From: Streptomyces sp. RPA4-2
GTDB lineage: Bacteria > Actinomycetota > Actinomycetes > Streptomycetales > Streptomycetaceae
Assembly (NCBI RefSeq): GCF_012273515.2
Contig: NZ_CP050975.2
Coordinates: 62,001 to 126,000, forward strand
Direction: 5' to 3'
Length of the DNA stretch: 64,000 nucleotides
The notes under the pieces are model-generated. The model was given only the letters and a program-made list of their open reading frames with translations, ran no database searches and had not been told where the DNA came from. The stretch's first letter is position 1. The number at the start of each line of letters is the position of its first letter. Positions 38,383 to 58,195 of this stretch are shown here, piece by piece. Both the position numbers and the translations under genes were made by a program.

Positions 38383-38871
38383 TCAGGCCTGGCGGCCGAG
38401 GTCGGCCAGCGGCTCGCCGGAGAGGCGGAAGACGGTCAGTTCCTTGCCCTGGACCGAGGGGATCTCCGCGCCGAGCGACCGGTAGAAGGCGGCGGTCGGC
38501 TCGTTGGTGACCCTGCCCCACCACTGCATGTGGCGGTAGCCGCGCGTGGCGCACAGGCCGGCGAGGGTGCTCAGCAGGGCCGTGTCGAAGCCGCGTCCGA
38601 CCGCGTCCTCGCGGACGTAGATGTCGTCGATGTGGAGGGCGGTGCCGCGCCAGGTGCTGTAGACGAGGGCCCACAGGGTGTAGCCGACGATCTCGTCGGT
38701 CTTGTCGTCGACGGCGAAGTGGGCCCAGGCCACCGGGTGGGGGCCGAACAGGGCGCGGCGCAGTTCGTCCTCGTCGGTGCTGATCTGCTGGGTCGCCTCC
38801 TCGTTCTCGGCCATCCCGTGCACCATCGTGTGGAGCAGCGTGACGTCCTCGGCGGTGACTGGACGAATCAT
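38383..38871 (-). CDS. GNAT acetyltransferase, diamine-acetyltransferase-like
   Basis: 162 residues from ATG 38871, nine bases after GGGGA; another ATG three codons earlier is too close. MIRPVTAEDVTLLHTMVHGM, LWALVYSTWRGTALHIDDIY, VREDAVGRGFDTALLSTLA (acetyl-CoA loop variant of Q/RxxGxG/A) and WWGRVTNEPTAAFYRSLGA match the N-acetyltransferase fold close to SSAT-type polyamine acetyltransferases. The CoA loop reads RGFDTALL, not the usual RGIGKALL. Cytoplasmic; single gene. Confidence 0.85.
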   Translation of the reverse strand: MIRPVTAEDVTLLHTMVHGMAENEEATQQISTDEDELRRALFGPHPVAWAHFAVDDKTDEIVGYTLWALVYSTWRGTALHIDDIYVREDAVGRGFDTALLSTLAGLCATRGYRHMQWWGRVTNEPTAAFYRSLGAEIPSVQGKELTVFRLSGEPLADLGRQA

Positions 38872-39379
38872 GTGTGCCATCCCCTGATCCTGGTGATCCG
38901 ATGAACCGGCCGCGTGGGTGCGGCGAGCGGGCGGTGCGGCGTCGGGGTGCCGCGGCGGCCGGGCCCCCGGGGGCTCAGGTTCGCACGCGTGTGCAAAGGC
39001 CATGGATCGGCCGCGGGGGAACTGGTGGAATTCCCAGACTTTGCCGCGCGTCCTTCCCGGGGGAGGGTTCCGGAGGTAAATACGGGGGTGGGTGGGAGGG
39101 TTCGTGTCGTCCGTCTCCGGAATACCCTCGAATGCGGGTGGCCAAGCGGATGGGGACATGCTTGTACCACATGGTCGGCCGGGAGGAAAAGGCCTGTCGG
39201 GCTTCGTCCCGCTCTCTCGTGACGTTCCATTGTTTTCCCTACCACCTGCCTGTCGAGGTATCCGGCCGGTGGCTGCGGCGGCGAGAATTCATTGTCCGGA
39301 GGCGGCCCGCAGGTGTGGTGACACAAGAGCCCGGCGGTCGCGTGGCCGGAGTGACGATTCAACGCGCAGAGAGGCAGCC
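38872..39379. other. Left border region of the metabolite cluster
   Basis: No gene is supported. It separates the GNAT gene from the first cluster gene on the + strand and so must carry the promoter of the TrpB-like gene. No CTAG-containing promoter box like those at 54629 and 63071 is seen here. Confidence 0.45.
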
Positions 39380-40744
39380 ATGATAGAGCCGGTACGGTTC
39401 GAGCTCAGCGCCCGGGATCTTCCCGAGACCTGGTACAACATCGCCGCCGACCTCGACTATGTGGCGCCGGTGTTGAGCCCGGCGACCGGTAAGCCGGTCA
39501 CACGTGACGAGATGACCCGCACGATGCCGGAGGCGCTGGTCGACCAGGAGCTCAGCAGGGAAGCCGAGTTCGAGATCCCGGGAGAGGTGCGGCAGTTCTA
39601 CGCCCGGTGGCGGCCGGCGCCGCTGCTGCGTGCCCGTGGTCTGGAGAAGGTTCTGGACACGCCGGCGCGGATCTACTTCAAGTACGAGGGTGTGGCGCCG
39701 ACCGGCAGCTTCAAGCCGAACTCCGCGATCCCGCAGGCCTACTACAACAAGCGCGCGGGCCGTACCGGTCTGATCGCGGAGACCGGTGCGGGCCAGTGGG
39801 GCAGCGCGGTCGCGTTCGCGGCGTCCCTGTTCGGCATGGACGCCAAGGTGTTCATGGTGAACGTGAGTTTCCAGCAGAAGCCCTACCGGCGGGCGCTGAT
39901 GGAGACCTTCGGGGCGAGCTGCACGCCGAGCCCGAGCATGGAGACCGAGGCCGGGCGTGCGGTGCTGAAGGAGAACCCGGACCACCCGGGCAGTCTGGGC
40001 ATCGCCAAGTCCGAGGCGCTGCAGGTCGCCTTCTCCGACCCGCGCTGGGGCTACACCCGCGGCAGCGCGCTCAATCACGTGTGTGCGCACCAGACGGTGA
40101 TCGGGCAGGAGGCGCTCCTGCAGATGGAGATGGCCGGGGACTACCCGGACATCGTGGTCGGCTGTGCGGGCGGCGGCAGCAACCTGGCCGGGCTGTCGTT
40201 CCCGTTCCTGCGGGCGCAGTTGCACGGCGGGCCCAAGATCCGGTTCATCGCGGCGGAGCCGGCCGCGTGCCCTTCGCTCACGCAGGGGCGGATCGCCTAC
40301 GACTACTCCGACACCGCCGGGCTGACCTCGCTGACCCGCACGCACACGCTGGGCCACCAGTTCGTGCCGCCGTCGGTGCACGCGGGCGGGCTGCGGGCGC
40401 ACAACATCGCTCCGCTGGTCAGCCGGGTCGTGGAGGAGGGCCTGATGGAGGCGGTGGCGCTGCGTCAGCGTGACTGCTTCGAGGCCGGTGTGCTGTTCGC
40501 GCGTACCGAGGGCATCGTGCCGGCTCCCGAGTCGACGCACGCGATCCGCGGCGCGGTCAACGAGGCGATCCGGTGCCGTGAGGAGGGCGTGGGCAAGACC
40601 ATCCTGTTCGGCCTGTCCGGGCACGGGAACTTCGACCTGAGTGCCTACGACCGTTATCTGTCCGGCAGTCTCGCCGACGACAGCATCGACCCCGGCGCCC
40701 TCGAGCACGGGCTGGAGAGCATTCCCAAGCTGGTGAACGCCTGA
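39380..40744 (+). CDS. TrpB2-like PLP-dependent beta-substitution enzyme
   Basis: 454 residues from ATG 39380 with GAGAGGCAGCC upstream. The fold-type II layout is clear: RIYFKYEGVAPTGSFKPNSA carries the PLP lysine, AETGAGQWGSAVAF the catalytic Glu, and GCAGGGSNLAGLSFPFL the phosphate-binding glycine loop. Length and YYNK, FQQKPYRRALMET place it with TrpB2, the tryptophan-synthase-beta-like group. Where TrpB2 normally has SHKPN this has SFKPN, the pattern of threonine synthase and dehydratases. So it probably makes a non-standard amino acid by beta- or gamma-replacement rather than tryptophan. There is no TrpA in the cluster. It opens a run of genes that activate and modify an amino acid. Confidence 0.8.
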   Translation: MIEPVRFELSARDLPETWYNIAADLDYVAPVLSPATGKPVTRDEMTRTMPEALVDQELSREAEFEIPGEVRQFYARWRPAPLLRARGLEKVLDTPARIYFKYEGVAPTGSFKPNSAIPQAYYNKRAGRTGLIAETGAGQWGSAVAFAASLFGMDAKVFMVNVSFQQKPYRRALMETFGASCTPSPSMETEAGRAVLKENPDHPGSLGIAKSEALQVAFSDPRWGYTRGSALNHVCAHQTVIGQEALLQMEMAGDYPDIVVGCAGGGSNLAGLSFPFLRAQLHGGPKIRFIAAEPAACPSLTQGRIAYDYSDTAGLTSLTRTHTLGHQFVPPSVHAGGLRAHNIAPLVSRVVEEGLMEAVALRQRDCFEAGVLFARTEGIVPAPESTHAIRGAVNEAIRCREEGVGKTILFGLSGHGNFDLSAYDRYLSGSLADDSIDPGALEHGLESIPKLVNA

Positions 40745-40804
40745 CGCAGTCCGGGCCGCCCGCAAGCAGGAGCACAGCAGCAGGAGAAGGGACGGGACGA
40801 TCCC

Positions 40805-41785
40805 GTGAAACGTGTCAGCGCCGTGCAGTTCGTGGTCCTGGGGGTCATCTGGGGCTCCAGTTATCCCCTGATCAAGGTCTCCGGCGAGGGGCTGAACCCG
40901 GGGCAGCTGGTGCTGGCCCGGCTGGTCCTGGGGGCGGTGGTCCTGATCGGCATCGGTGCGGTGACGGGCGCGGGGCTGCCGCGCTTCGGCTTCGTGTGGG
41001 TGCACATCACCGTCACGACCGTGCTGGGCATGGTCGCGCCGTTCCTTCTCCTCGCCTGGGGCGAGCAGCACACCAGTGCCGCCATGGCCGGTGTGCTGAC
41101 CGGCGCGACCCCGCTGCTGACGCTGGCGCTGGCCACCGTGCAGCTGCGCAGTGAGCGGGCGACGGCGCGCCGCAGTGCGGGGCTGACGCTCGGCTTCGCG
41201 GGCATCGTGCTCGCCATCGCGCCCTGGAACGGTGCGACGGGCACCGCGGGCGGTGAGATGGCGTGTCTGGCGGTCGCCGTGATCTACGCGGGGCATGCGG
41301 TGTTCGTCCGCAAGTTCCTGTCCGACCGCGGTATCTCGCCGATGTCGTCGGCCAGTGCGCAGGTGCTGGTGGCGCTGGTCATCCAGGCGGCGCTCCTGCC
41401 GTTCCTGGGCTGGCGCACCCCGTCGTTCACCTGGTCGGTCTCCCTGAGCATCGTGCTGCTGGGGGTGTTCGGCACGGGGCTCGCCTATGTGCTCTACAAC
41501 CGGCTGATCGCGGACATCGGTGCGACCGGTGCCTCCGCGGTCAACTACCTCGTGCCGTTCATCAGTCTGGTGGTCAGCGCCGTCTTCCTCGGGGAGAGGT
41601 TCAGCTGGAACGTGCCGGTCGGCGGTGCGGTGATCGTGGTGAGCATCCTGCTCGGCGAGAACCAGCTGTCGCGGCTGGGGCGGCGTCCGGTCGTCACCGG
41701 TCCCGAGCCGGAGTTCACGCCGGCCGCGGTGGCCGTGGGCGCCGTGCAGGCGGAGCCCGCGGGTGAGGCGGGGCGCGTTCCCTGA
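40805..41785 (+). CDS. EamA/DMT-family exporter
   Basis: 326 residues from GTG 40805 with AGGAGAAGGGA upstream. Ten membrane segments in two EamA halves: FVVLGVIWGSSYPLIKVSGE opens the first, and MACLAVAVIYAGHAVFVRKF the second, ending GLAYVLYNRLIADIGATGAS. The family exports amino acids and small metabolites. Placed inside the cluster between the TrpB-like gene and the regulator, it likely exports the product or a toxic amino-acid intermediate. Confidence 0.87.
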   Translation: MKRVSAVQFVVLGVIWGSSYPLIKVSGEGLNPGQLVLARLVLGAVVLIGIGAVTGAGLPRFGFVWVHITVTTVLGMVAPFLLLAWGEQHTSAAMAGVLTGATPLLTLALATVQLRSERATARRSAGLTLGFAGIVLAIAPWNGATGTAGGEMACLAVAVIYAGHAVFVRKFLSDRGISPMSSASAQVLVALVIQAALLPFLGWRTPSFTWSVSLSIVLLGVFGTGLAYVLYNRLIADIGATGASAVNYLVPFISLVVSAVFLGERFSWNVPVGGAVIVVSILLGENQLSRLGRRPVVTGPEPEFTPAAVAVGAVQAEPAGEAGRVP

Positions 41786-41976
41786 CCGTGCGGGCGCGCC
41801 GCGGTGCCGCCGTGCGGGGTGAGGTCCCCGTGCGTACGCGGCGGGCCGGGCGCTGCCGGTCGCGGTGGGACGGATCCGGTGCGCGGCGCGCACAGCCGGG
41901 TGCGCGCCGGGTCCGGCGCGTTCACGAGCCGGGGCACCTGTGGTCCCGGTGCCTCATCCAGGAAGTTTGGAGGTTG

Positions 41977-42678
41977 ATGTCGCAGATGGCCGCCACCGAT
42001 CCCCGTACCCGGCCGATCCGGATCGCCGTTCTGGCCCGCCGGCCGCTGCTCGTCACGGCGCTGCGTGCCCTGCTGGGCGCGGAGGCGGAGCTGGAGGCGG
42101 TCGGGGTGGCCGATTCCCGGCCGCAGCTGCTGCGTCTGCTGGACGAGCAGGAGCCGCGGGTCGTGCTGATCGACGACTCCGATCCGGGCTGGGAGACCGG
42201 TGCCATCCTGCGTGCGGTCGCCGAGCGGGCCGGCGGGGTGGCGGTGGTGGTGCTCGTGGACCAGTGCGTGGACGAGACGGCGCTGGAGTATCTGCGGGCC
42301 GGGGCGGACGGGTTCGTGCCGCTCGACGCGGCGTTGAGCGAGATCGCCACCGCGATCCGCGCGGTCTCGGACGGGTACGCCGTGCTGCCGCCGCCGCTGA
42401 CGCGTCGGCTGGTGGATCTCCTGGTCCGGCGTGGGCCGGCGCAGGTGGTGGTGCCGCAGGTGTCGACGCTGACGTCGCGGGAGCGGGAGATCTTCGATCT
42501 GATCGCGGCGGGCATGTCCAACAGCGAGGTCGCCCAGGCGCTGGTGCTGAGCGAGAAGACCGTGAAGTTCCATGTGTCCAACCTGCTGCGCAAGCTCGGT
42601 GTGCGCAGTCGTGCGCAGGCCATCGTCCGTGCGTGGGACCGGGGTGTTCTGGCCGGCCCGGGGGGCGGGGGTTTTTAA
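41977..42678 (+). CDS. NarL/LuxR-type response regulator, orphan
   Basis: 233 residues from ATG 41977 (GGAGG four bases upstream; ATG 41986 is the alternative). A receiver domain (IRIAVLARRPLLVTALRALL, RVVLIDDSDPGWETGAI, ALEYLRAGADGFVPLDA) leads to a LuxR HTH: LTSREREIFDLIAAGMSNSE then VAQALVLSEKTVKFHVSNLL. No histidine kinase is adjacent. The phosphoacceptor region reads IDDSD, with an acidic residue at the expected place. It probably activates the cluster in response to a kinase elsewhere or without phosphorylation. Confidence 0.88.
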   Translation: MSQMAATDPRTRPIRIAVLARRPLLVTALRALLGAEAELEAVGVADSRPQLLRLLDEQEPRVVLIDDSDPGWETGAILRAVAERAGGVAVVVLVDQCVDETALEYLRAGADGFVPLDAALSEIATAIRAVSDGYAVLPPPLTRRLVDLLVRRGPAQVVVPQVSTLTSREREIFDLIAAGMSNSEVAQALVLSEKTVKFHVSNLLRKLGVRSRAQAIVRAWDRGVLAGPGGGGF

Positions 42679-43044
42679 GGTTCCGCGTTCCGCGTTGTCG
42701 TAAGAGACGGGTGTGAGCTTTTCTGGAACACGGGGTGTCGCCGCTGTGGTGACGAATGCTCGTCGAAATCGGTCCGGGCCGGGTGCAATTGACGGTCCGG
42801 GCCGTCGCGACGAGTTTTTCTGTTTTCCGGAAAGGGCCGTCGGTAATGTGTTCGTGGTGCCTGTCACGGTTTATCGGCGCGATGCATGCAATCCGGTCCT
42901 GATACAGGTCCAAAGAACGGGTACAAAACCAGGCCGCTAGTCCGAAGAAATCTGCTGGGCGACACCCTCAGAATGTTCGTGACGGTATATCCGGTCGGAG
43001 GACTCGAATGCTCGGGTCCCCCGACTTTCGATCAATGGGGAGTC
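42679..43044. other. Promoter region upstream of the ligase-carrier operon
   Basis: No gene supported. It is less GC-rich than its surroundings (for example 42800-42990) as expected for a promoter. A GTTCCGCGTTCCGCG direct repeat lies near 42679-42696. The LuxR protein may bind here. Confidence 0.45.
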
Positions 43045-44496
43045 ATGTCCAGATCGGTGGCGGCGGACGTCGCAGTGCGTGCGAGGCAAAGCCCGGACGA
43101 TCCGGCGCTGCTGTTCGGCGGCGGGCCGGACGAGGTCGTCACGTATGCCGAACTGGTCGGGGCGGCGGAGCGGATCGGTGCCGAACTGGCCGGCCGGTAT
43201 CCCGACACCCGCCGCCCGCTCGCGCTCCAGGCGTCGAAGTCGACCGTGGCGATCGCCACGGTCCTGGCCTGCATGCAGGCCGGACGGCCGCTGCTGCTGG
43301 CCTCCACGGAACTCGGCCGGGAACTTCTGGCCGAGCTGGTCGAACGCAGCGGCTGTCAGGCCGTACTGGGGGTCGTCGAGGAGCGTCTGACGCACCGTCC
43401 GGTGGCCGGCGACGCGCAGGGCGGGCCGGTGCTGCCGCAGGACACGAGTCTGCTGCTGACGACGTCCGGTTCCACCGGCGTCCCCAAGCTCGTTCCGCTG
43501 GGCGGGGCCGGCATCGACGCCTTCACCTCCTGGGCGGGCAGCGCGTTCGCGCTCGGCACCGGTACCCGGGTGCTGAACTTCGCCCCGCTCAACTTCGACC
43601 TCACCCTCCTGGACATCTGGGGGACGCTGCGGCACGGCGGCTGTGTCGTACCGGTGGACCACGACCGGTCCGTCGACACCAAGTACCTGCTCGGGCTGCT
43701 GGCGAGCACCCGGCCGCACGTCGTGCAGGCGGTGCCGATGTTCTTCCGTCTGCTGACCGAGGCGGGCACCGCCTGCGAGTTCCCGGGTGTGCGTGAGCTG
43801 CTGCTGACGGGTGATCACGTGCCGCGGTCGGTGCGGGCCGGGCTCGCCCGGCTCTTCCCGGCGGCGCGGCTGCACAACGTGTACGGCTGCACCGAGACGA
43901 ACGACAGCATGATCCACACCTTCTCCGCCGCCGAGGCGGCCGACCGGGAGGTGCTGCCGCTGGGCAGTCCGCTGCCGGGCGTACTGGTGGAGGTGGTGGC
44001 CGACGGGGAGGTGCTGCGGGGCGCCGGCAGCGGCGAACTGCTGGTCTCGACGCCGTTCCAGACCGCCGGGTACCTCGGCGAGGCCGGGGCCAAGGACCGG
44101 TTCGTCGTGCGCGGTGACCGTGTCTGGTACCGCACCGGCGACGTGGTCACCCGCTCCGCCGGCGGTGAACTGGCCCTGGTGGGCCGCACCGACTCGCAGG
44201 TCAAGGTGCGCGGTGTGCGGATCAATCTGGAGGAGGTCGAACGGGTCCTCCAGGGCCACGGAGGGGTCGCCGAGGCGGCCGTGGTGGCCGTGCCGCACGC
44301 CGTCTCGGGACGTGCACTGCACGCGTTCGTCCGTCGCAGCGACGACGCGGTGACCGGACTGCAGCTGCGCAGCTACTGCGCCGCCAAGGTCAACCGGGCG
44401 GCCATTCCCGCCGCCTTCCACCTGATGACCGACCCACTGCCGATCGGGCCCACCGGCAAGGTGAGCCGTCGCCTCCTCATGGAGAAGATCGAATGA
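43045..44496 (+). CDS. Amino-acid-activating AMP ligase (stand-alone adenylation domain)
   Basis: 483 residues from ATG 43045 with GGGGAG upstream. Adenylation motifs: LLTTSGSTGVPKLVP (A3), NFDLTLLDIWGTL (A4, with the Asp that binds the amino group of an amino acid), VYGCTETND (A5), VWYRTGDVV (A7), GRTDSQVKVRGVRINLEEVE (A8) and GPTGKVSRR (A10 Lys). The A4 Asp indicates an alpha-amino-acid substrate; the specificity code cannot be read reliably by eye. It is a free-standing A domain like the prolyl-AMP ligases that feed a carrier protein. Its stop overlaps the ATG of the carrier gene by four bases (ATGA), so translation is coupled. Confidence 0.88.
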   Translation: MSRSVAADVAVRARQSPDDPALLFGGGPDEVVTYAELVGAAERIGAELAGRYPDTRRPLALQASKSTVAIATVLACMQAGRPLLLASTELGRELLAELVERSGCQAVLGVVEERLTHRPVAGDAQGGPVLPQDTSLLLTTSGSTGVPKLVPLGGAGIDAFTSWAGSAFALGTGTRVLNFAPLNFDLTLLDIWGTLRHGGCVVPVDHDRSVDTKYLLGLLASTRPHVVQAVPMFFRLLTEAGTACEFPGVRELLLTGDHVPRSVRAGLARLFPAARLHNVYGCTETNDSMIHTFSAAEAADREVLPLGSPLPGVLVEVVADGEVLRGAGSGELLVSTPFQTAGYLGEAGAKDRFVVRGDRVWYRTGDVVTRSAGGELALVGRTDSQVKVRGVRINLEEVERVLQGHGGVAEAAVVAVPHAVSGRALHAFVRRSDDAVTGLQLRSYCAAKVNRAAIPAAFHLMTDPLPIGPTGKVSRRLLMEKIE

Positions 44497-44753
44497 CCAT
44501 CCAACGCGACATCACCGCGCACATCGTGGCGGAGTACCTGCCCGGCACCCCCGTCTCGGAACTGGACGCGTCCTACGACCTGCTGGAGAACGGGGTGATC
44601 AGCAGCCTGGATCTGCTGCGGCTCATCGAGTGGCTGGGTGACCGCTTCGACATCCCGTTCGCCGACCTGGAGATCTCCCCGGACGACTTCCGGTCCGTCT
44701 CGGCCGTCGAGAAGGTCGTCCGCCGCTACGCGGGCGTCACCGCTCCCGAGTAA
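44493..44753 (+). CDS. Acyl/peptidyl carrier protein
   Basis: 86 residues from ATG 44493, overlapping the ligase stop. [20 protein letters not shown] is the phosphopantetheine site; Ser38 in GVISSLDLL is the attachment residue. Length and the D/E-rich helices ([19 protein letters not shown]) fit a stand-alone carrier protein. With the ligase it makes an aminoacyl thioester. It is followed by the cupin and dehydrogenase genes that probably act on the bound group. Confidence 0.9.
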
Positions 44754-44800
44754 CCCCCCGCTCCCCCGCACGTCCACACCCAGGAGAAAGAAAGGAAACC

Positions 44801-45178
44801 ATGTTCATTCGCGAGAAGTCGCAGGTCACACCGGTCGAGTGGGGAAGCGGTCCGAGTCACCGCCTCCTGGTCGAAGCGGACAACATGGGCTTCGGGATCT
44901 GCCACACGGTCGTCCGCGCGGGCACGAAGTCACGGCTGCAGTACCGGCGCCATCTCGAGGCGTGCTACTGCATCTCCGGCTCGGGCCGCGTCGAGGCCGC
45001 CGACGGCAGCGTCGCGCAGGACCTGACCCCCGGTGTGCTGTACGTCCTCGACGAGCACGACGCCCACTTCCTGATCGCCTCTCCCGACCAGGACATGGAG
45101 CTGGTCAGTGTCTTCAACCCGCCGCTGAAGGGCGACGAGAGCCACGCGCTCAGCGACGAAGCCTTCTCCCAGTACTGA
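44801..45178 (+). CDS. Ectoine-synthase (EctC)-like cupin
   Basis: 125 residues from ATG 44801 with GGAGAAAGAAAGG upstream. The order [53 protein letters not shown] and [16 protein letters not shown] follows EctC closely, including the late FNPPLxGxExH. EctC closes N-acetyl-diaminobutyrate to the tetrahydropyrimidine ring of ectoine by water loss. The usual EctA and EctB genes are absent. So this copy probably cyclises or dehydrates the amino acid of this cluster. Metal-binding residues of cupin motif 1 appear altered ([10 protein letters not shown] has one His and one Glu). Confidence 0.82.
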
Positions 45179-45198
45179 GGATCGGAATCTCCCCCGTC

Positions 45199-46365
45199 AT
45201 GATGCGCTGGAGCGAGGAACAGCAGGAACTGCGTGAGGCGATCGGTGCCGTGGCCGCGAAGGTCGGCGCCGACCACCTCGAACGCGACCAGGCCGGCACG
45301 TTCGACCGGGACGGCTGGCAACGACTCAAGGACGTCGGCCTGTTCGGGCTGCCGTTCGATCCCCGGCACGGGGGGCTGGGCAAGGACCTGCTGACCACCG
45401 TCCACGTGCTGGAGCAGCTCGGCCACGACTGCCAGGACTCCGGGCTGAACTTCTCGGTCTCCACCCACATGGTCAGTACCGGTGTCCCGCTCCAGCGGTT
45501 CGGTTCGTCGGCGCTCAAGGCCCGCTACCTGCCGGAGATCTGTGCCGGCACGATGATCGGCGCGCACGCCATCACCGAGCCCTCCGGCGGTTCGGACGTG
45601 ATGGGGATGCAGACCACCGCCGTCCTGGACGGCGACGACTTCGTCCTCAACGGAAGCAAGTCGTTCATCAGCAACGCCTCGATCGCCGACGTGATCGTCG
45701 TCTACGCCCGTACCGGCGCGCCCGGGGATCTGGCCGGGATCACCGCGTTCCTGGTGCGCCGGGACTCGCCGGGGCTGTCGGTCGGCAACCCCATCTCGAA
45801 GATGGGGCTGCGCACCTCACCGCTGGCCGAGGTCTTCCTGGACGACGTCCGGGTGCCCCGCGACCACGTGGTCGGCAGCAAGGGCGCCGGGTTCCTCATC
45901 TTCGACCACGTCATGAAGTGGGAGATCCTGTGCGGCTTCGGGATCAACGTCGGGGAGATGCGCCGGCGCCTGGAGCGGTGCGTGGAGTACGCCCGCACCC
46001 GTACCCAGTTCGGCTCGGTCATCGGCGCGAACCAGTCGGTCGCCAACATGATCGTCGAGATGCGGATCGACCTGGAGACCTCGCAGAAGTGGATCTACGA
46101 CACCGCCGAGAAGGTGCAGTCCAAGGCCGACGCCGCCGGTGACGTCGCGATGACCAAGCTGGTGGTGAGCGAGGCGAACGTACGCTCCGCGCTGAACGCG
46201 ATCCAGGTCTTCGGCGGTTACGGCTACGTCAGCGAGTACGGAGTCGAGAAGGATCTGCGGGACGCCGTGGGCGGGCGGATCTACTCCGGCACCTCGGAGA
46301 TCCAGCGCCAACGACTGGCCACCCTCATGGGCCTGAACCGTCCGCTCAGGCCCGCGCAGGCCTGA
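45199..46365 (+). CDS. Acyl-CoA-dehydrogenase-like flavoenzyme acting on carrier thioester
   Basis: 388 residues from ATG 45199. The FAD domains are clear: IGAHAITEPSGGSDVMGMQT, LNGSKSFISNASIADVIVVY, KMGLRTSPLAEVFLDDVRVP and IQVFGGYGYVSEYGVEKDLR. The conserved end is IYSGTSEIQRQRLATLMG. In most members the catalytic Glu is in YEGTSE; here it is Ser (YSGT). Isovaleryl-CoA and prolyl-carrier dehydrogenases use a Glu in helix G instead, and MKWEILCGFGIN (Glu at about residue 240) fits that. It likely desaturates the carrier-bound acyl group. It follows the cupin by 20 bases. Confidence 0.88.
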   Translation: MMRWSEEQQELREAIGAVAAKVGADHLERDQAGTFDRDGWQRLKDVGLFGLPFDPRHGGLGKDLLTTVHVLEQLGHDCQDSGLNFSVSTHMVSTGVPLQRFGSSALKARYLPEICAGTMIGAHAITEPSGGSDVMGMQTTAVLDGDDFVLNGSKSFISNASIADVIVVYARTGAPGDLAGITAFLVRRDSPGLSVGNPISKMGLRTSPLAEVFLDDVRVPRDHVVGSKGAGFLIFDHVMKWEILCGFGINVGEMRRRLERCVEYARTRTQFGSVIGANQSVANMIVEMRIDLETSQKWIYDTAEKVQSKADAAGDVAMTKLVVSEANVRSALNAIQVFGGYGYVSEYGVEKDLRDAVGGRIYSGTSEIQRQRLATLMGLNRPLRPAQA

Positions 46366-46390
46366 GGATCTGGAAGGAATCCCGAGAAAC

Positions 46391-47110
46391 ATGGCAGAGA
46401 ACACCGGTGCCGCCGCTGCGGCCGGCACCGCCACCGAGACGGCCACCCTGGCCGCGACCGAGTTCCTGGACCACCGCTCGCCCACCGTCCGCGCGTTCGT
46501 CGACAAGACCCTCGCCCGCGCGAAGGAGAGCGACACCGCCACCCAGAAGGCGACAGCCCTCTACTACGCCGTCCGGGACGGCATCACCTACGAGGTGTAC
46601 GGCGCCGATCTGACCCGGCACGGCCTGAGCGCGACCGGCGTGCTGGAGAAGGGCTTCGGGTTCTGCGTCCACAAGTCCATCCTCTACGCGGCCGCGCTGC
46701 GTGCCGTGGGCATCCCGAGCCGGGTCTACTACGGCGACGTGCGCAACCACCTCGCCTCGCCGCGGCTGCGGGAGCTGGTCGGCGGGGACGTCTTCCGCTT
46801 CCACAGCCTGACCGTGGTCAACCTCGACGACCGGTGGGTGAAGGCGACCCCGGTCTTCAACAAGCTTCTCTGCCGGCTCTACAAGATCAAGCCGCTGGAC
46901 TTCGACGGCCGCACCGACAGCCTGTACCACCCGTTCGACGAGGACGGCCGCCAGCACATGGAGTTCATCCACGAGCACGGCTCCTTCGACGACGTCCCCT
47001 ACGACCTGGTGGTCGGCGGGATCAAGCAGGCGCACCCGCAGCTGTTCGCGAGCGCCCACACCACCGTCTCCGGATCGCTGGCCGACGAGGCCGCGACCGC
47101 GACGGTCTGA
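46391..47110 (+). CDS. Transglutaminase-like (Cys-His-Asp) protein
   Basis: 239 residues from ATG 46391 with GGAAGGAATCCC upstream. After an Ala/Thr-rich start, the transglutaminase core is GFGFCVHKSILYAAALRAVG (Cys nucleophile at about residue 93), HSLTVVNLDDRWVKATPVF (His, then Asp). This domain forms or breaks amide bonds. In andrimid biosynthesis a relative transfers a carrier-bound acyl group to an amine. In this cluster, next to a ligase, carrier and dehydrogenase, it may release the tailored group onto an amine; this is inference. Proteolysis or deamidation is the alternative. Confidence 0.82.
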   Translation: MAENTGAAAAAGTATETATLAATEFLDHRSPTVRAFVDKTLARAKESDTATQKATALYYAVRDGITYEVYGADLTRHGLSATGVLEKGFGFCVHKSILYAAALRAVGIPSRVYYGDVRNHLASPRLRELVGGDVFRFHSLTVVNLDDRWVKATPVFNKLLCRLYKIKPLDFDGRTDSLYHPFDEDGRQHMEFIHEHGSFDDVPYDLVVGGIKQAHPQLFASAHTTVSGSLADEAATATV

Positions 47111-47216
47111 GACGGCGTCCGGTGCGGCCCCACCCGGTCTCCCCCGCCGGGCGGCCGCACCGGACCGCCCCCGCACCCACCCACGCACACGCACACCCAC
47201 AGGAACGGAGATCGCC

Positions 47217-47735
47217 GTGCCGGCAGCGGCAGGAATCGTCGACGACCTCACCGGATACGCCGAGTACGCCGGCTGGTCGCACACGCTGCACCGCAGCCGT
47301 CCCGGAGGACACCTGGTACTGCCGGGCGCCTACCTGAAGTGGTACGACATCCGCGGCGCGGAACAGGAGGCGACGCCCGCGGTGAGCGACCGGGCGCGGG
47401 TGTTCCTGCGGGCCGAGGAGGCGGCCGGACGGCTGGCGTTCCGCAAGGAGTTCGGCTACGTGCTGCTGCACCGCTGCGGCGAGTACCACTTCATGCAGGT
47501 CTGCGTGTGGCGGGACCGCAACGAGCTGGTCCAGGCGATCTACGCCGACACCGGCGGCGGTTTCCGGCCCTACGAGCAGGAGCCCGGCCTGCAGCTCGCC
47601 GCCCAGGACGTCGTCGAACTGGACGTGACCGGGCACGAGCGGCGTGCCTGGTCGCACTACCTGCGATCGAAGCGTGACACCGCCGCGAAGCGGGCCTACC
47701 TCGACGACTTCGACACCGAACGCCCGGTGGGCTGA
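47217..47735 (+). CDS. Hypothetical cluster protein
   Basis: 172 residues from GTG 47217 with GGAACGGAGATCGCC upstream. No known domain. It shows VLPGAYLKWYDIRGAEQEAT, FGYVLLHRCGEYHFMQVCVW and LQLAAQDVVELDVTGHERRA: a soluble beta-rich protein with an RCGEYHFMQVCVWRDRNELV segment holding two cysteines. Its placement between the transglutaminase-like and nucleosidase genes, on the same strand, makes it part of the pathway. Function unknown. Confidence 0.7.
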   Translation: MPAAAGIVDDLTGYAEYAGWSHTLHRSRPGGHLVLPGAYLKWYDIRGAEQEATPAVSDRARVFLRAEEAAGRLAFRKEFGYVLLHRCGEYHFMQVCVWRDRNELVQAIYADTGGGFRPYEQEPGLQLAAQDVVELDVTGHERRAWSHYLRSKRDTAAKRAYLDDFDTERPVG

Positions 47736-47759
47736 CACTTGCGAAAGGCAGGAAGCGCC

Positions 47760-48530
47760 GTGTCCCTTCACCCGGTCACCGACCACGCGTTGTGCCCTCG
47801 CCTCCTCGGTGAGATCCGCTCCGACCGGCCGCTGATCGTCGCGGCCGTGGAGGAGGAGGCCGCCCACCTGGACGGCCGGTTCCCCCTCCTGGTCACCGGG
47901 ATGGGAAAGGTCAACGCGGCGGCCGCCCTCGCCCTCGCCCTGTCCCGGGGCGAGCGCCCCGGCGAGATCGTCAACCTGGGCACGGCCGGGGCGCTGAAGG
48001 AGGGCCTGTCGGGCCTCCACGAGATCTCCCGGGTCGTCCAGCACGACCTCGACACGGCCCTCCTGCACAAAATCAGCGGCCGCGTCTACGGTGCTCCCCT
48101 CACCGTCGGCGCGGGCCGCGGGCCCACCCTGGCGACCGGGGACACCTTCGTCACGGACTCCGCCGTCCGTGAACGGCTCGCCCTCGAGGCCGACCTCGTC
48201 GACATGGAGGGGTACGCCGTCGCCACCGTGGCACAGCACCTCGACATCCCCGTACGCCTCGTCAAGTTCGTCAGCGACAGCGCCGACGAGGACGCACGCA
48301 CCACCTGGCCCGAGGCCCTCGACCACGCCGCCGGGATCCTGGCCGGCTGGGTCGAGAAGCACATCCCTCACCCCGCACGCCCCGCCGTCTCCCCCGCCGC
48401 ACCCGCACGTCCGTCACCTTCACCGTCCACCCGCTGTCAGCGCCCCACGCCGCATAGGGCTGCACCGCCGACAGCCCCCGCACCCAAGGGAGCGCTGTGT
48501 CTCATCGCCTGTTCACTTCGGAGTCCGTGA
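47760..48530 (+). CDS. MTA/SAH-type nucleosidase
   Basis: 256 residues from GTG 47760 with AAGGCAGGAAGCGCC upstream. The purine-nucleosidase fold is seen in [80 protein letters not shown] and [15 protein letters not shown]. It likely cleaves S-adenosylhomocysteine or methylthioadenosine, by-products of SAM use. The last 50 residues (after HIPHPARP) are a Pro/Ala-rich tail without family counterpart, and its frame ends 34 bases inside metK. The natural end was probably near residue 205, so a lost stop is possible. Confidence 0.8.
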
Positions 48531-49708
48531 CAGAGGGACACCCCGACAAGATCGCCGACCAGATCAGCGACACCATTCTCGACGCCCTGCTGCGCCAGGA
48601 CCCCACCTCACGCGTGGCCGTGGAAACACTGATCACCACCGGCCTGGTGCACGTGGCCGGCGAGGTCGCGACCACGGCCTACGTGCCCATCGCCCAGCTC
48701 GTCCGGGACAAGATCCTGGAGATCGGCTACGACTCCTCCGTCAAGGGCTTCGACGGCCTGTCGTGCGGGGTGTCCACGTCGATCGGCACGCAGTCCCCCG
48801 ACATCGCCCAGGGCGTCGACTCCGCGTACGAGAAGCGCGCCGGGAACGGGGACAGCGACAACCTGGACCAGCAGGGCGCCGGCGACCAGGGCCTGATGTT
48901 CGGCTACGCGACGGACGAGACGCCGGAACTGATGCCGCTGCCGATCCATCTGGCGCACCGGCTCTCCCACCGGCTGTCCGAGGTCCGCAAGAACGGCACG
49001 ATCCCCTACCTCCGTCCCGACGGCAAGACGCAGGTCACCATCGAGTACGACGGCGACCGGGCGGTCCGGCTGGACACCGTCGTCGTGTCCTCCCAGCACT
49101 CCGCGGACATCGACCTGGACTCCCTTCTCGCCCCCGACATCCGGGAGTTCGTGGTGGAGCCGGAGGTGCGGGCGCTGGCGGACAACGGCATCAAGCTGGA
49201 CACCGAGGGCTACCGCCTGCTGGTCAACCCGACCGGCCGCTTCGAGATCGGCGGCCCGATGGGCGACGCCGGCCTGACCGGCCGCAAGATCATCATCGAC
49301 ACGTACGGCGGCATGGCCCGCCACGGCGGCGGCGCCTTCTCCGGCAAGGACCCCTCCAAGGTCGACCGCTCGGCCGCGTACGCGATGCGCTGGGTCGCCA
49401 AGAACGTCGTCGCCGCGGGTCTCGCCTCGCGCTGCGAGGTCCAGGTCGCCTACGCCATCGGCAAGGCGCGGCCGGTCGGCCTGTTCGTGGAGACCTTCGG
49501 CACCCACACGGTCGACGTCGACCGGATCGAGAAGGCCATCGACGAGGTCTTCGACCTGCGCCCGGCCGCGATCATCCGCGACCTCGACCTGCTGCGCCCG
49601 ATCTACGCGCAGACCGCCGCCTACGGCCACTTCGGCCGCGAGGGCGACGGCTTCACCTGGGAGCGCACCGACCGCGTCAACGCGCTGCGCACGGCGGTCG
49701 GCCTCTAA
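48497..49708 (+). CDS. metK: S-adenosylmethionine synthetase
   Basis: 403 residues from GTG 48497 (preceded by AAGGGAG). Full length and complete signatures: [19 protein letters not shown] at the N-terminus, [40 protein letters not shown] and [20 protein letters not shown]. It makes SAM from methionine and ATP. A Streptomyces chromosome normally has a housekeeping metK elsewhere, so this is probably a second copy supplying the pathway. It overlaps the nucleosidase frame by 34 bases. Its stop at 49708 directly abuts the TnpB element. Confidence 0.95.
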
Positions 49709-51905
49709 GAGTCACCCCGTAATGGGGTGCCATCCGTCCAGTTCCTGTTCGGGTGTGCCGCCACGAGGTGGGGCGTTCCCTACTGGGGCTGCTGTTCCGA
49801 CGTGGGCCTTGTGCCGCTTGTTCGCGGGTTGGGTCTCATTCGGGGTGGGCCGGTACCGGGCGGTGGTTTTTTGCCGAGCAGAGGCCCGCGGCCCCGGGGT
49901 TCCAGGGGTGCGGGCTGCCGCGTGGGTGCGGCCCCGGGTGGGGCGGGCACCGCGCTGCGGTTGACTCGACAGGGCTTCTTGCAGCCCTTCTGAGAAAAGT
50001 AGCTGTGTCATGCGGGCCTGGACAACGTCCAGGCCCGCAGTGCTGGGGTCGGCCGGGTCGGTGAAACGGACGTGTGAGGCAAGGGCTGCGGAGACCATGT
50101 CCCGGTCGGCGGTGAGCCCGCAGGAGATACAGCGGTGCACGCGTTCGGCGAGTGTCTTCCTGACTTCTGCGCCGCACAGGCAGGTCTGCGACAGTTTCGT
50201 CGTGAACGTCGACGCCCGCAGGAGGCGGCCACCGGCCTTCTCACACTCGCGGCCGATCGCGGTGATCAGACGGCCCGGCGTGGTGGCCTGGAGGGCTTTG
50301 CCCCACAGGCGGTACCAGGTGCGGATGTCGCAGTCCTCGACAGTGAGCCGCGCACCGTGAGTTCCCACGATCTGTTCGGCGATGCGCCGTGCACGGTGGT
50401 CTTTCGCCGCGGCTACGGTCGCAGCGGCCTCCGCGAGGCGGGCCCGGTTGAGGCGGTAGCCGGCCGACAGTCCGTCGCGCCGGTACGCCTGCCGCGGCAC
50501 ACCGGCTCTGTTCGCGCTCCGGGCACCGCCGGGAACCTGGTCGGTGCGAGCGGGCAGGCCGACTGTCTCGCGACGCTTGGTCCGGGCCTGCTGCCGTTTC
50601 GACGGCACGTACTGCACCGGGTTGGTGGCCCGGCGGGACCGGTCGAGTGCGCGTTTGCGCCCCCGTTCCTTCCGGCGGGCTTTCTCGAGCGCGGCGAGCT
50701 CGACGTCGGTGAGCTCGACACGACTGGTCTGTATCGTGCCGTCAGCGGGGTCGAACGTGCCCGGGAACGAGATGACGGACAGGTTGGTGACGTTCCCGTC
50801 GATGCCCCCGACCCGGTCCAGGCCGGCCGCGGCTTGGCGGCGGGCTCGGGTTTCCGGGGACGCGTACCCGCTGGTGAGGACCATCAGGTGCGCCTCGTAC
50901 GCCCACCCGCCGGGTGCTGACGTGTCACGGCGGCGGACAAGGTCGACCTTGTGCCAGGTGCTGGGGTTGTTCAGGAAGTGGAGCAAGCGGGGCCAGCGGC
51001 CGGCGCCGGACGGCAGCCGGACCGGGAGGACCAGGTCGCCGCGGCGGGAGTCCGCGCCGCCGGCGAACACCAGCGTGAGCGGACCGGTGTGGTCCCACCA
51101 GGTCGCGGCCCGGGTCCTGGGTGTGCCTTTCGCCGTGGTCTCACCGGTCGACACCCGGCCAGCGGGGCGGGTCGGTGCAGGCAGCCGTCGTGGCTGCTCG
51201 AGCACCTTCGTCCCCGCCGGTAACTCGGCCGCCTGCTCCGGCGTGAGCAAATGAGGGCCCAGGTCCCGGTGCCGGTAGGCGGAGAGGTGGCCGGCGAGCG
51301 TGCCGTGGAGCTTGAACGTCTCCCACTTCCGGCCCGTCGTGTGTGACCGGGCGCGGCCGGGTATCCGGGTGTAGTCCCACCAGGGTCCGGTCTTCGGACG
51401 GCCGGCCCTGCGACCTGAAGCGTCCGGAAACAGGTGCCGAGCGGTGCCTTCCCAGACCTCGTCGGCCTGGTGCATCACCAGAGCTTTGGTGACGTGATGC
51501 CCGAGGTGGCGGGAGCGTTCCATGTGCTGGTAGCCGCGTTGTTCCATCCCCTCCCGGGAAAGGCCCAGGACGGCACGCCACGCCTTCGCATCTTCCTCGC
51601 GGCGCACGTCGCCGGCCCAGTACGCGTCGACCGCAGCACGCGCGTCCCGCTGCAGTGCCCTCTTCACCGATCCCATCGCCGTATACAGCTGTTCCGCCCG
51701 GGACGCGTCCTCGGGGCGGTGGACGTCCAACGGCAGGCTGATGACCGCGAGTTCGGTGTCCTCACCACGTTTCCAGCTAGGCCCCTTGTTCTTCCCTCGG
51801 AACCTGCGCGCGGGAGTAGCGTCGGAAACAGAAGACACGCGTCGCGGACTTGCAGTCATAGGCCTTCCACCTCCTTTTCTGGACGCGCCGGGGTATGCAG
51901 ATCTG
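49709..51905 (-). mobile_element. TnpB-only IS605-type element
   Basis: Right end at the hairpin 49715-49733 (GTCACCCC/GGGGTG), directly after the metK stop; left end lies within about 51860-51960, not resolved by eye. It contains only tnpB. As in related elements, the RNA transcribed from this end would carry a guide read from flanking DNA, here the 3' end of metK in antisense. Confidence 0.5.
49712..51859 (-). CDS. tnpB: TnpB-family RNA-guided nuclease, unusually long
   Basis: 715 residues from ATG 51859. TnpB is normally about 380-450. The RuvC core is intact by eye: GGIDGNVTNLSVISFPG (first Asp, about residue 353), ARLTVEDCDIRTWYRLWGKA (Glu, about 520), the zinc ribbon CLCGAEV ... HRCISCGLTADRD with four Cys and the last Asp. 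About 300 extra residues precede it (basic, helix-rich), and a 90-residue Arg/Pro/Thr-rich tail follows the last motif. No TnpA is next to it. The stop is inside the terminal hairpin CACCCC-ATTA-CGGGGTG, four bases from the metK stop. It belongs to an IS605-type element inserted in the cluster. Confidence 0.85.
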   Translation of the reverse strand: MTASPRRVSSVSDATPARRFRGKNKGPSWKRGEDTELAVISLPLDVHRPEDASRAEQLYTAMGSVKRALQRDARAAVDAYWAGDVRREEDAKAWRAVLGLSREGMEQRGYQHMERSRHLGHHVTKALVMHQADEVWEGTARHLFPDASGRRAGRPKTGPWWDYTRIPGRARSHTTGRKWETFKLHGTLAGHLSAYRHRDLGPHLLTPEQAAELPAGTKVLEQPRRLPAPTRPAGRVSTGETTAKGTPRTRAATWWDHTGPLTLVFAGGADSRRGDLVLPVRLPSGAGRWPRLLHFLNNPSTWHKVDLVRRRDTSAPGGWAYEAHLMVLTSGYASPETRARRQAAAGLDRVGGIDGNVTNLSVISFPGTFDPADGTIQTSRVELTDVELAALEKARRKERGRKRALDRSRRATNPVQYVPSKRQQARTKRRETVGLPARTDQVPGGARSANRAGVPRQAYRRDGLSAGYRLNRARLAEAAATVAAAKDHRARRIAEQIVGTHGARLTVEDCDIRTWYRLWGKALQATTPGRLITAIGRECEKAGGRLLRASTFTTKLSQTCLCGAEVRKTLAERVHRCISCGLTADRDMVSAALASHVRFTDPADPSTAGLDVVQARMTQLLFSEGLQEALSSQPQRGARPTRGRTHAAARTPGTPGPRASARQKTTARYRPTPNETQPANKRHKAHVGTAAPVGNAPPRGGTPEQELDGWHPITG

Positions 51906-52003
51906 TCCGGTCGGCAGTCGGCTCGGCAATCACAAGGAGACTAACTGCCGCCGCTGACAACGAGCCCCGCACACAGATGCGTTGGCTGGCTACGATCACG
52001 GTC

Positions 52004-52763
52004 ATGCGTCTACGGCTCGCCCATTGCACTCCCACTGACCTGCGGGCATGGACCGGGCTGACCGAACCACAGCTGCACCGGCTCGTCGCACGGCTCTGGG
52101 AGAAGATGCCGGATGCAGGCCGCGGCCGGCCCTGGGCGCTGCCGTTCCTCGACCGGGTCCTCCTGCTCGTCCTCGCCTACCGGACCAACCTGACAATGCA
52201 GCAACTCGGTTTCCTGTTCGGCATCTCCGACTCCGCGGTGCACCGCACTGTCGACCGTCTCGCCAGCCCTCTAGCCGAACTCCTCGGGCCGCCGCCCACC
52301 GACCGCAGGGAACTCTGGCTCGTCGACGGCACACTCATTCCCGTCCACGACAAAGCAAGGACGGCGAAGTCGAAGAACTACCGGCGCAGTGTCAACGTGC
52401 AGGTCGTCTGCCGGGCCCGCGACCGACGCGTGGTAGCCGTCGGAGACGCCTGGCCCGGAAACCGCAACGACAGCGTCGTCTTCCGCGAAACAGTCGGACG
52501 AACCCTGTCCGACCATCCACGGCTACCGCGGAAACGACCGCATCCGCACACCCCGGCGTGGGCCGGACGGCCGGATCGTCAAAGACCGAAACCACCGACG
52601 GTTCCGTAAACGACGAGCCGTGGCCGAGCATGTGATCGCCCGCCTGAAAGACCACCAGATCCTCGGCCAATGCCAATGCCAATGCCGACGCCGCGGCAAT
52701 GGCATCGATCACGCCGTCGCAGGCGTCGCCGCACTCCACAACCTCAAGTTGGAAATCCGGTAA
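52004..52763 (+). pseudogene. IS5-type DDE transposase, frameshifted
   Basis: The first part, from ATG 52004, encodes the HTH and first catalytic region: PTDLRAWTGLTEPQLHRLVA, FLFGISDSAVHRTVDRLASP, ELWLVDGTLIPVHD (first Asp) and VVAVGDAWPGNRNDSVVFRE (second Asp). After the Asp-His region at about 52530 the frame changes by one; the tail GYRGNDRIRTPRRGPDGRIV, RRFRKRRAVAEHVIARLKD (catalytic Glu) and AVAGVAALHNLKLEIR ends at TAA 52763. A small deletion near 52530 thus inactivates it. Family IS5 (IS427-like) by motifs. Confidence 0.8.
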
Positions 52764-53105
52764 CCCACACTGCCACCCCACCCCGGCATGCCCGACAGCT
52801 CATTGCGGGACATCTCTTAGACCCGCCTCGCCACAGCGACGCGGTCCTGGCCGCCTCGCACACGTATCGGGCCCGGCGTCCTCAGGGGACGCCGGGCCCC
52901 GGTGTTCCCACGGGACGCCTGCGGCGGGCCGTGACGGGGCGGACTCCCCGCGGACGACGCGCGAAGCCGGGCCGGACACGGCGGCGCCGCCCACCCTGCA
53001 GGAAGCGGCCCGGCCGCTCCCCCGGGGCGAACCGGTTCTGGCTCCGGGGCTCGACGCCGCCGGGCCGAGGGTGGGCGGCGGGCCGGGGACGGGCGGACCC
53101 GGGGG
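52764..53105. other. Region between transposase relic and acyltransferase
   Basis: No gene supported. It carries a terminator-like hairpin at 52869-52899 and probably one end of the transposon relic (GCGGGACATCTCTTAG at 52805-52820). Confidence 0.45.
52869..52899 (-). terminator. Hairpin terminator
   Basis: Perfect 13-base arms GGGCCCGGCGTCC and GGACGCCGGGCCC with loop TCAGG, about 210 bases past the stop of the acyltransferase gene. Confidence 0.65.
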
Positions 53106-54470: not shown

Positions 54471-54782
54471 TGTGCCTCACTGAGATCGGCCTGCGGGCGC
54501 GCCTGTTGACCTGACACTCCAGCGTTCCGCGGACCGGGCGAGGAAATCCCTAGTCCTCGTCCGCGGGCCGTCGTGGTGGGTGTGCGGGCGGCCGACGGCC
54601 GTGCGCGGGGCCGGTTTTGGTGGATCCCTAGACTTGTCCGGCAGCGCTGGGCACGCCGGTGCGCGGTGTGTTGGGCTGGGTTTCCCGGACGGCAGACACC
54701 GGTCCGGGGACCCCGCTCGCACTTCCTGCCGTCGAGGCCACGGCTCCGTCCCCGCCGGCAGCCACAGGGAGGCCACCAGCCG
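54471..54782. promoter_or_regulatory. Divergent promoter region with CTAG-containing -10 boxes
   Basis: Between acyltransferase (-) and 3-dehydrase (+). It contains GGATCCCTAGACT at 54622-54634, whose TAGACT is a good -10 hexamer for the + gene, and AAATCCCTAGTC at 54545-54556. The first box is almost identical to GAATCCCTAGACT upstream of the P450 gene at 63064-63076. CTAG is rare in this DNA. Confidence 0.55.
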
Positions 54783-57315: not shown

Positions 57316-57401
57316 CGGCTGTTCCTTCGGTACGGCGGTGGCCTCGGACGGTGCGCCCGCGGCCGCCGGGGAGAGAGGCGGGCCCGCTGCCGGGGAACCG
57401 G

Positions 57402-58004
57402 TCACGTGCCGCGCAGCGCCGCGTAGTGGGCGAGGCAGTCCTCGTAGCGCGGCAGCAGGCCTGTGCGGCGGGCGGTGGCGACGGCGACGGCCCGGGAGTC
57501 CTTGGCCGACATCAGCGGGGTCTCCGACAGCTGCCACGGTAAGTCCAGTTCGGCGTCGAGGGGGTCGATGTCGACCTGGGTGCCGGGGACGAACTCGGTG
57601 GAGCACAGGTAGGAGACGCAGGTGTCGTCGGTGAGGGCGAGGAAGCCGTGCACGAGCCCTTCGGAGACGAAGACGCTGTCGCCGGACTCGGCGCTCATCC
57701 AGTTCGCCTCGTGTGCGCCGAAGGTGGGCGAGCCGAGGCGCACGTCGACGACGATGTCGAGGATCGCGCCGCGTACGACGCACACGACCTTCGCCTGGCC
57801 GGGTGGCAGCAGGGTGCCGTGGAGCCCGCGCAGGGTGCTCTTGCGGGAGACCGAGTAGTTCACCTGCACGAGGGGCACCGGTCTGCCGATCTCCTCGGCC
57901 AGCCTGTCGTGGCGGAACGACTCGTAGAAGTTCCCGCGCACATCACCGATCTTGTGCGGTGTGATGTGGAAAGCGTCCGGCACAGCCATCTCTCGAACCT
58001 TCAT
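57402..58004 (-). CDS. dTDP-4-keto-6-deoxyhexose 3- or 3,5-epimerase
   Basis: 200 residues from ATG 58004. RmlC-like cupin: IGDVRGNFYESFRHDRLAEE, LVQVNYSVSRKSTLRGLHGT (the catalytic His in RGLHG), PGQAKVVCVVRGAILDIVVD, FVSEGLVHGFLALTDDTCVS (second His) and DIDPLDAELDLPW. Full length for the family. Whether C3 only or both C3 and C5 are inverted cannot be read. Its ribosome site is weak. In the same direction as the glycosyltransferase and divergent from the ketoreductase at 58196. Confidence 0.9.
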   Translation of the reverse strand: MKVREMAVPDAFHITPHKIGDVRGNFYESFRHDRLAEEIGRPVPLVQVNYSVSRKSTLRGLHGTLLPPGQAKVVCVVRGAILDIVVDVRLGSPTFGAHEANWMSAESGDSVFVSEGLVHGFLALTDDTCVSYLCSTEFVPGTQVDIDPLDAELDLPWQLSETPLMSAKDSRAVAVATARRTGLLPRYEDCLAHYAALRGT

Positions 58005-58195
58005 GGTGGCAGCACCATAGGGCGGGCCGGTCGAGGACCGTTGAAGAGCCGCACAGGGCACGGTCGAGTCGAACGGTCCTGGAGGGGTCCTCGATCGCCG
58101 GATGCCACAGTGACCGCGCAAAACCGACGTCCGCCGCCGTGGCGCACGGGACGACGTACGGGTGCGGGGCGACCCGGGCCAAAAGGGGGAGCGGC

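Follow-up and report, generated by a model that had tools for sequence, protein, structure and literature searches.

The locus and its gene block

The window analyzed here is a stretch of 64,000 bp from Streptomyces sp. RPA4-2 (contig NZ_CP050975.2), corresponding to positions 62001–126000 of its 9.86 Mb single-contig genome. It contains a run of 11 genes headed by a TrpB2-type pyridoxal phosphate (PLP) enzyme. We read this run, with a probability of about 55%, as the biosynthetic genes for a C-linked amino acid whose core is 2-aminopyrrole-5-carboxylate, with TrpB2 as the coupling enzyme. All 11 genes had been named in a previous sequence-only reading; every one of them was found at 39380–49708 on the + strand, and profile searches matched the families. 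The genes follow one another in the order given below, preceded by a divergent acetyltransferase gene.

38383–38874 (approximate), − strand: GNAT acetyltransferase (Acetyltransf_1), divergent from the run; the same family stands beside TrpB2 in the two loci compared below (L014, L015)
39380–40744, + strand: TrpB2-type PLP enzyme (NF009057, 648 bits, cut-off 366; TIGR01415, 570 bits, cut-off 519); proposed C–C coupling enzyme
40805–41785, + strand: exporter of the EamA/drug/metabolite transporter (DMT) type (PF00892)
41977–42678, + strand: LuxR/NarL-type regulator (GerE; Response_reg 30.1 bits, cut-off 30.2)
43045–44496, + strand: stand-alone adenylation enzyme, hereafter the ligase (AMP-binding, PF00501 and PF13193); code DLLQLTVDSK
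44493–44753, + strand: carrier protein with Ser38 for the pantetheine arm; weak family match (NF052616, 38.8 bits, cut-off 130; AmcB, 21.1 bits, also below cut-off)
44801–45178, + strand: EctC-like cupin (Ectoine_synth, PF06339, 115 bits; PRK13290, 134 bits, cut-off 128); proposed glutamine cyclase
45202–46365, + strand: acyl-CoA-dehydrogenase-like enzyme; best models PigA (387 bits, cut-off 500) and RedW prolyl-PCP dehydrogenase (353 bits, cut-off 650), both curated cut-offs being missed
46391–47110, + strand: transglutaminase-like protein (Transglut_core, PF01841, 58 bits); proposed release enzyme
47217–47735, + strand: 172-residue protein, matching no family and kept with TrpB2
47760–48530, + strand: nucleosidase (PNP_UDP_1; PRK05634, 226 bits, cut-off 129); accessory, probably not core
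48497–49708, + strand: MetK, second copy in the genome (S-AdoMet_synt domains); accessory, probably not core

The starts given for the regulator (41977), the ligase (43045) and the nucleosidase (47760) are the likely ones, chosen from the sequence. The ligase and carrier genes overlap by 4 bases, and a gap of 366 bases lies between the regulator and ligase genes. A scan of the run gave one promoter-like site (0.4 expected) and one terminator-like site (2.8 expected).

The block is collinear with two other loci and is therefore not a chance assembly. In L014 (Streptomyces cavernae) one collinear stretch extends from the GNAT gene to metK with 82–88% DNA identity, and a second begins at window position 53094. 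In L015 (Streptantibioticus silvisoli) the DNA match runs from the GNAT gene to the 172-residue protein only (76–86% identity), and EamA is missing. Since the GNAT gene is kept beside TrpB2 in both loci, it is part of the conserved block.

A cassette of the showdomycin type

Using the window cupin, 17 homologues and three plasmid copies as the query alignment, we retrieved the 80 top-scoring loci out of 414 with an EctC-like gene in the genome collection; being ranked by similarity, these loci are not an unbiased EctC sample. Genes were tagged there at a threshold of 45 bits, and each family takes its name from a single tested member. The cassette, defined by a ligase and a dehydrogenase-like gene beside EctC, was revealed in 60 of the 80 loci, with a carrier in 59 and a transglutaminase-like gene in 52 of the 60. 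Its hosts include actinomycetes, Vibrio, Grimontia, Halomonadaceae, roseobacters and Burkholderia, as well as three inspected plasmids. The ligase, carrier, EctC-like cupin, dehydrogenase-like and transglutaminase-like genes are thus one cassette, and the gene set has precedent.

Among the 20 loci that do not contain the cassette, some lie on short contigs and ten belong to Corynebacterium. Seven of the latter (L049, L055, L059, L062, L063, L065 and L074) all have ThiG-family and DAO-family (ThiO-like) genes near the EctC-like gene (families named from L062 and L055), and these EctC-like proteins may have a function connected with thiamine genes.

The precedent is the showdomycin cluster (sdm) of Streptomyces showdoensis. 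According to excerpts of a C-nucleoside review (PMC8724604), its route starts from glutamine, which the cyclase SdmE converts to 2-amino-1-pyrroline-5-carboxylate, cyclisation being placed before loading; SdmC activates and SdmD carries the product, oxidation and hydrolysis follow, the C-glycosynthase SdmA adds the ribose part, and SdmB is a phosphatase. By role, the window block is like this cluster in having a ligase, a carrier, a glutamine cyclase, an oxidase for the carrier-bound ring and an enzyme for the hydrolysis that yields an aminopyrrole acid, all five functions being encoded together. It differs in having TrpB2 and the 172-residue protein instead of a PsuG/YeiN-type C-glycosynthase and a HAD phosphatase; neither a PsuG-family nor a HAD-family gene was found in window positions 32001–56000. 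Matched by gene role to the description of the sdm genes and not to sdm sequence, the cassette would fit the showdomycin type, a known kind. The claim that the gene set comes from no described pathway therefore stands for the whole set and falls for the five genes of the cassette. The showdomycin cluster was reportedly studied by Palmu in 2017 and Ren in 2021, and the intermediate given by oxidation and hydrolysis, called "a pyrrole intermediate" in the title of a cited paper, is reportedly 2-amino-1H-pyrrole-5-carboxylic acid.

The ligase code is nearly constant. The pattern DLLQ[LVI]T[VIL]DSK fits 51 of 65 ligases from all locus types, and the code of the window ligase is identical at six of the 17 loci with a PsuG-type gene (L050, L051, L061, L070, L071 and L073), while the rest of the 17 are one to three residues off. 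For this reason the same amino acid is most likely loaded at all cassette types. The window ligase is proposed to load glutamine or its cyclic amidine. That an amino acid is activated and worked on by a cyclase and a desaturase while bound to the carrier, as the sequence-only reading had it, is the natural reading of these genes.

Excerpts of PMC6344544 and PMC5924519 describe solitary EctC proteins, which belong to the Ectoine_synth family outside ectABC and whose function is called unclear. The window cupin is of this kind, and its genomic setting suggests glutamine cyclisation for an aminopyrrole. EctC of Halomonas elongata converts L-Gln to the cyclic amidine 5-amino-3,4-dihydro-2H-pyrrole-2-carboxylate (ADPC), with very low efficiency (excerpts of PMC5924519). 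The residues aligned with the iron ligands (E53, Y81 and H89) occur in every one of the 63 cassette copies compared, which come from 60 genome loci and three plasmid loci. Asn-38 of the Paenibacillus enzyme, which touches the free carboxylate of the substrate (excerpts of PMC6344544), is replaced by Cys in 27, Ala in 34 and Thr in two of the 63. This replacement would suit a carboxyl group masked as a thioester, a weak argument given that the other EctC of the genome has His at this position.

PigA and RedW act together with a ligase and a carrier, on which the pyrrole is made. The dehydrogenase-like enzyme of the window likewise accompanies a ligase and a carrier; in contrast to PigA and RedW, its proposed substrate is a cyclic amidine and not proline. 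Its Glu241 is presumably the catalytic base. In the transglutaminase-like protein, Cys92, His138 and Asp146 or 147 are candidate active-site residues assigned by motif. Transfer to an amine, proposed in the sequence-only reading, may be the work of this protein, though freeing the acid is the better fit.

A TrpB2 lineage in the place of the C-glycosynthase

The window TrpB2 is a full match to the known family (TIGR01415), with the catalytic Lys112 and Glu134 motifs kept. It differs from known TrpB2 enzymes in that (i) no trpA partner was found among the proteins of the block, so that a tryptophan synthase complex is not encoded there and delivery of the nucleophile would be unlike that in tryptophan synthase; (ii) it belongs to a cassette-tied clade of its own; and (iii) its proposed nucleophile is an aminopyrrole and not indole. 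The clade comprises 20 rows (support 100/100) from 19 distinct loci, all cassette-linked. The window is one of 18 cassette rows in it; the other two rows are L095, which is identical to L017 and seemingly lies on that very contig, and L096, which has the full cassette in its surroundings. Of the next outward rows, L097–L102, four were inspected (L097, L098, L099 and L102), and their surroundings gave no EctC or dehydrogenase match and, at L102, a single ligase match of 31%. The L015 enzyme is 89% identical to that of the window. TrpB matches above 250 bits occur in 19 of 150 Streptomyces genomes.

Among the 60 cassette loci, TrpB2 was found in 17 (the window besides), a PsuG-type gene in 17 and a small multidrug resistance (SMR) exporter in 23, and no locus contained two of the three. 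The tested member of the PsuG-type family is Indigoidine_A/PsuG (PF04227), and some of these loci also have a HAD gene. The SMR loci variously carry MarR, DsbA-like, deaminase and arylmalonate-decarboxylase-like genes. The Gram-negative cassettes L029, L030, L036, L042, L046, L052, L056, L064 and L077 (Vibrio, Grimontia, Alteromonas, Halomonadaceae, roseobacters and kin) have SMR exporters, MarR, DsbA-like and arylmalonate-decarboxylase-like genes and, in some cases, a deaminase. The lack of overlap between TrpB2 and PsuG has P = 0.001 if the loci are treated as independent, and the loci are related by kinship.

A quick core tree was made from 64 rows, each joining a ligase, an EctC and a dehydrogenase protein (support from the Shimodaira–Hasegawa-like approximate likelihood ratio test, SH-aLRT, only). 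The neighbour sets interleave on it, with 11 label changes against a shuffled mean of 32. The TrpB2 label needs four gains or losses, of which at least three are forced by well supported branches. The sister group of four Actinokineospora TrpB2 loci is made up of nine PsuG loci (support 92). That a dedicated TrpB2 lineage stands in the place of the C-glycosynthase while the building block stays the same is our main reason for proposing a role in C–C coupling. We infer that TrpB2 attaches the aminopyrrole to an aminoacrylate derived from serine.

The 172-residue gene goes together with TrpB2: it is present at 11 cassette loci out of 60, each of which also has TrpB2, and six TrpB2 loci do not have it. 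Arylmalonate-decarboxylase-like genes occur at four of the 17 TrpB2 loci, none of them with the 172-residue gene, and the two genes might replace each other. The protein has 44 homologues, and 12 alignment columns are invariant, a KWYD run and an HE pair among them. It gave no match in Pfam or NCBIfam at E 0.001; its profile found nothing in PDB up to E 10 and scattered weak matches in Pfam (best E 0.012, in at most three of 45 members). Within the genus it was found in seven of 295 genomes, the window's included, four of the seven being weak or broken matches. EamA relatives were detected at the TrpB2 loci L014, L038–L040, L066, L072 and L080.

The following route is proposed. The ligase would load L-glutamine or its cyclic amidine on the carrier, as the gene content fits the showdomycin route, and the cupin, acting before or after loading, would form the ring by joining the side-chain amide to the alpha-amine. 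The dehydrogenase-like enzyme would oxidise the aminopyrroline ring to carrier-bound 2-aminopyrrole-5-carboxylate, and the transglutaminase-like protein would free the acid. TrpB2 would make aminoacrylate from serine, to which the pyrrole would add through the electron-rich carbon that neighbours the one with the amino group, much as indole C3 reacts in tryptophan synthase and as the aminopyrrole is joined to ribose 5-phosphate in showdomycin. The predicted product is 3-(2-amino-5-carboxypyrrolyl)alanine, a C-linked amino-acid counterpart of showdomycin. More speculatively, the 172-residue protein or air may alter it, possibly to a thiol-reactive maleimidyl-alanine, while EamA may export the product, the GNAT protein protect the producer by N-acetylation and the LuxR protein regulate the cluster. 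Searches of the open-access literature revealed nothing on TrpB2 with aminopyrrole chemistry or on the TrpB2 plus 172-residue variant; most subscription journals were outside their scope, so unpublished status is not implied.

Several loci show other combinations. ATP-grasp ligases with an L-amino-acid-ligase domain were found at the TrpB2 loci L018 and L028 (tested members; the family was seen at six TrpB2 loci), as would be expected if a free amino-acid product were packed into a dipeptide. L016–L019 combine the cassette with TrpB2. L018 (4939–18721) also contains PabAB-like, pterin-binding (dihydropteroate synthase-like), glutamate-mutase E chain and two ATP-grasp amino-acid ligase genes; L016 has a B12-binding protein, and the other loci of this group share the L016/L018 families in part. 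In L009 (9712–17050, a plasmid of S. xanthii) and L076 (5701–12945, Sanguibacter) the cassette is accompanied by a gene for a divergent TrpD-like protein (Glycos_transf_3) and by TrpA, phosphoribosylanthranilate isomerase (PRAI) and indole-glycerol-phosphate synthase (IGPS) genes. Neither has a member of the chorismate-binding (TrpE-like) family, and L076 has no transglutaminase-like match. The arrangement looks as if the aminopyrrole replaced anthranilate in a tryptophan-like route. According to excerpts of PMC13055916, trpF has been recruited close to the showdomycin cluster.

Alternative readings and biological meaning

Several points weigh against the coupling role of TrpB2 and the pathway built on it. 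The exclusive neighbour sets may partly reflect shared ancestry. The code positions were set by GrsA numbering, and the codes were compared only among these ligases; 14 of the 65 are off the pattern by one to three positions (L010 by three). That SdmE is the EctC-like protein is our assumption from the roles. The transglutaminase-like protein may transfer the acyl group to an amine instead of hydrolysing it, and TrpB2 could use another nucleophile or make a separate building block. Finally, L072 (5610–20372) and L080 (5595–20360) contain TrpB2, EamA and the cassette, and their TrpE, TrpG, TrpD and IGPS-family genes near TrpB2 suit plain tryptophan supply. L080 also has a FAD/PLP-decarboxylase-type frame and a P450, and matching families occur in L072.

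In a rather unlikely alternative, though a real rival, the aminopyrrole cassette is as described but the amino acid from TrpB2 (for example a beta-substituted alanine or tryptophan) is a separate one, which the transglutaminase-like protein or a ligase attaches to the carrier-bound pyrrole acid as an amide. Transglutaminase-like proteins can act on acyl groups, and both the ATP-grasp ligases of L018 and L028 and the Trp genes of L072 and L080 lie by TrpB2. However, the transglutaminase-like gene is present at 52 of the 60 cassette loci, only 17 of which have TrpB2, so it is not a TrpB2-specific partner; and TrpB2 fills the slot held elsewhere by PsuG, which forms a C–C bond on the same pyrrole. 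The ATP-grasp ligases also suit the free amino-acid product of the coupling route.

It is improbable that S-adenosylmethionine (SAM) is a substrate, its aminobutyrate or methyl part being used while the nucleosidase clears methylthioadenosine (MTA) or S-adenosylhomocysteine (SAH) and MetK refills the pool. The nucleosidase gene does begin 24 bases past the 172-residue gene and overlap metK on the same strand, and both genes are collinear in L014. However, L014 is the only one of the 80 fetched loci with this pair, and the only one of the 11 others with TrpB2 and the 172-residue protein; L015 and the other nine do not have it. Besides MetK and the nucleosidase, no recognised SAM-using enzyme was found at 39380–49708. 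The nucleosidase, the only copy found in the genome, passes the generic model PRK05634 alone; with the specific models below cut-off (PRK05584, 70.4 of 169 bits; TIGR01704, 50.8 of 73.8 bits), the MTA/SAH substrate is not established. A second MetK is not rare either, as 21 of 61 Streptomyces genomes, the window's included, have more than one metK match (two of them only via fragments). The other MetK of the genome (G000:C1:1895042) is 90% identical. That the second copy confers self-resistance was considered and set aside; in a FastTree tree the window and L014 copies sit on long branches and are not sisters, with weak support. The two genes border a deoxysugar/glycosyltransferase cluster and are probably accessory or part of that cluster, not core; the idea that the cassette has its own SAM supply is accordingly weakened. 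Azetidine chemistry derived from SAM was dropped, as Pfam revealed no methyltransferase-type fold among the block proteins and the pair is not conserved.

The sugar cluster, at window positions 53094–64000, includes an RfbH-like aminotransferase, a macrolide-type glycosyltransferase and a dTDP-glucose dehydratase. The 3.4 kb between it and MetK (49708–53093) hold a TnpB-like gene (49712–51859, − strand); the same place in L014 measures about 250 bases. ARAGORN called a tRNA-Pro (cgg) at 61226–61316, which overlaps the 5' part of the dehydratase frame on the opposite strand.

Very unlikely is the order of the sequence-only reading, with a non-standard amino acid produced by TrpB2 and then loaded by the ligase for cyclisation or desaturation. 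TrpB2 heads the gene run, and stand-alone adenylation enzymes often load unusual amino acids, but the ligase code keeps one nearly unchanged pattern with or without TrpB2, which makes TrpB2 an unlikely source of the loaded amino acid. TrpB2 also lies after the cassette at 13 of the 17 fetched TrpB2 loci, and the showdomycin route begins with glutamine (excerpts of PMC8724604).

That the cupin makes ectoine from N-acetyl-diaminobutyrate, to be tailored by the cassette to a pyrimidine acid, is hardly credible: the cupin does belong to Ectoine_synth and keeps its metal-ligand-aligned residues, but no ectA or ectB was found among the block proteins, an aminotransferase (ectB-like)/ectC/PhyH (ectD-like) set as in ectBCD lies elsewhere in the genome at 2.388 Mb, and the Asn-38 position is Cys, Ala or Thr in every cassette copy, a weak point because the genome's other EctC has His.

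With TrpB2 as a coupling enzyme on the aminopyrrole, a broader idea can be put forward tentatively, and it may well fail. One glutamine-derived aminopyrrole acid would be a common carbon nucleophile with interchangeable C–C modules: PsuG for C-nucleosides, the TrpB2 clade for amino acids with a C-linked aminopyrrolyl or maleimidyl group, and divergent TrpD with TrpF, TrpC and TrpA in S. xanthii and Sanguibacter for a fused pyrrolopyrrole, the aminopyrrole standing in for anthranilate. On this view, many of the solitary EctC proteins would serve such chemistry as glutamine cyclases. This offers a testable function for many proteins whose role is called unresolved in excerpts of PMC5924519 and PMC6344544.

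The core cassette is of the already known showdomycin kind, and the combination of TrpB2 with the 172-residue protein would be the new part. If the coupling role is true, the cluster would represent a new class of amino-acid antimetabolites, the amino-acid counterparts of showdomycin, and a new reaction of the TrpB2 family with its substrates named. Replacing the enzyme that joins a sugar with one that joins an amino acid, while the building block stays the same, would then be a clear instance of modular pathway evolution.

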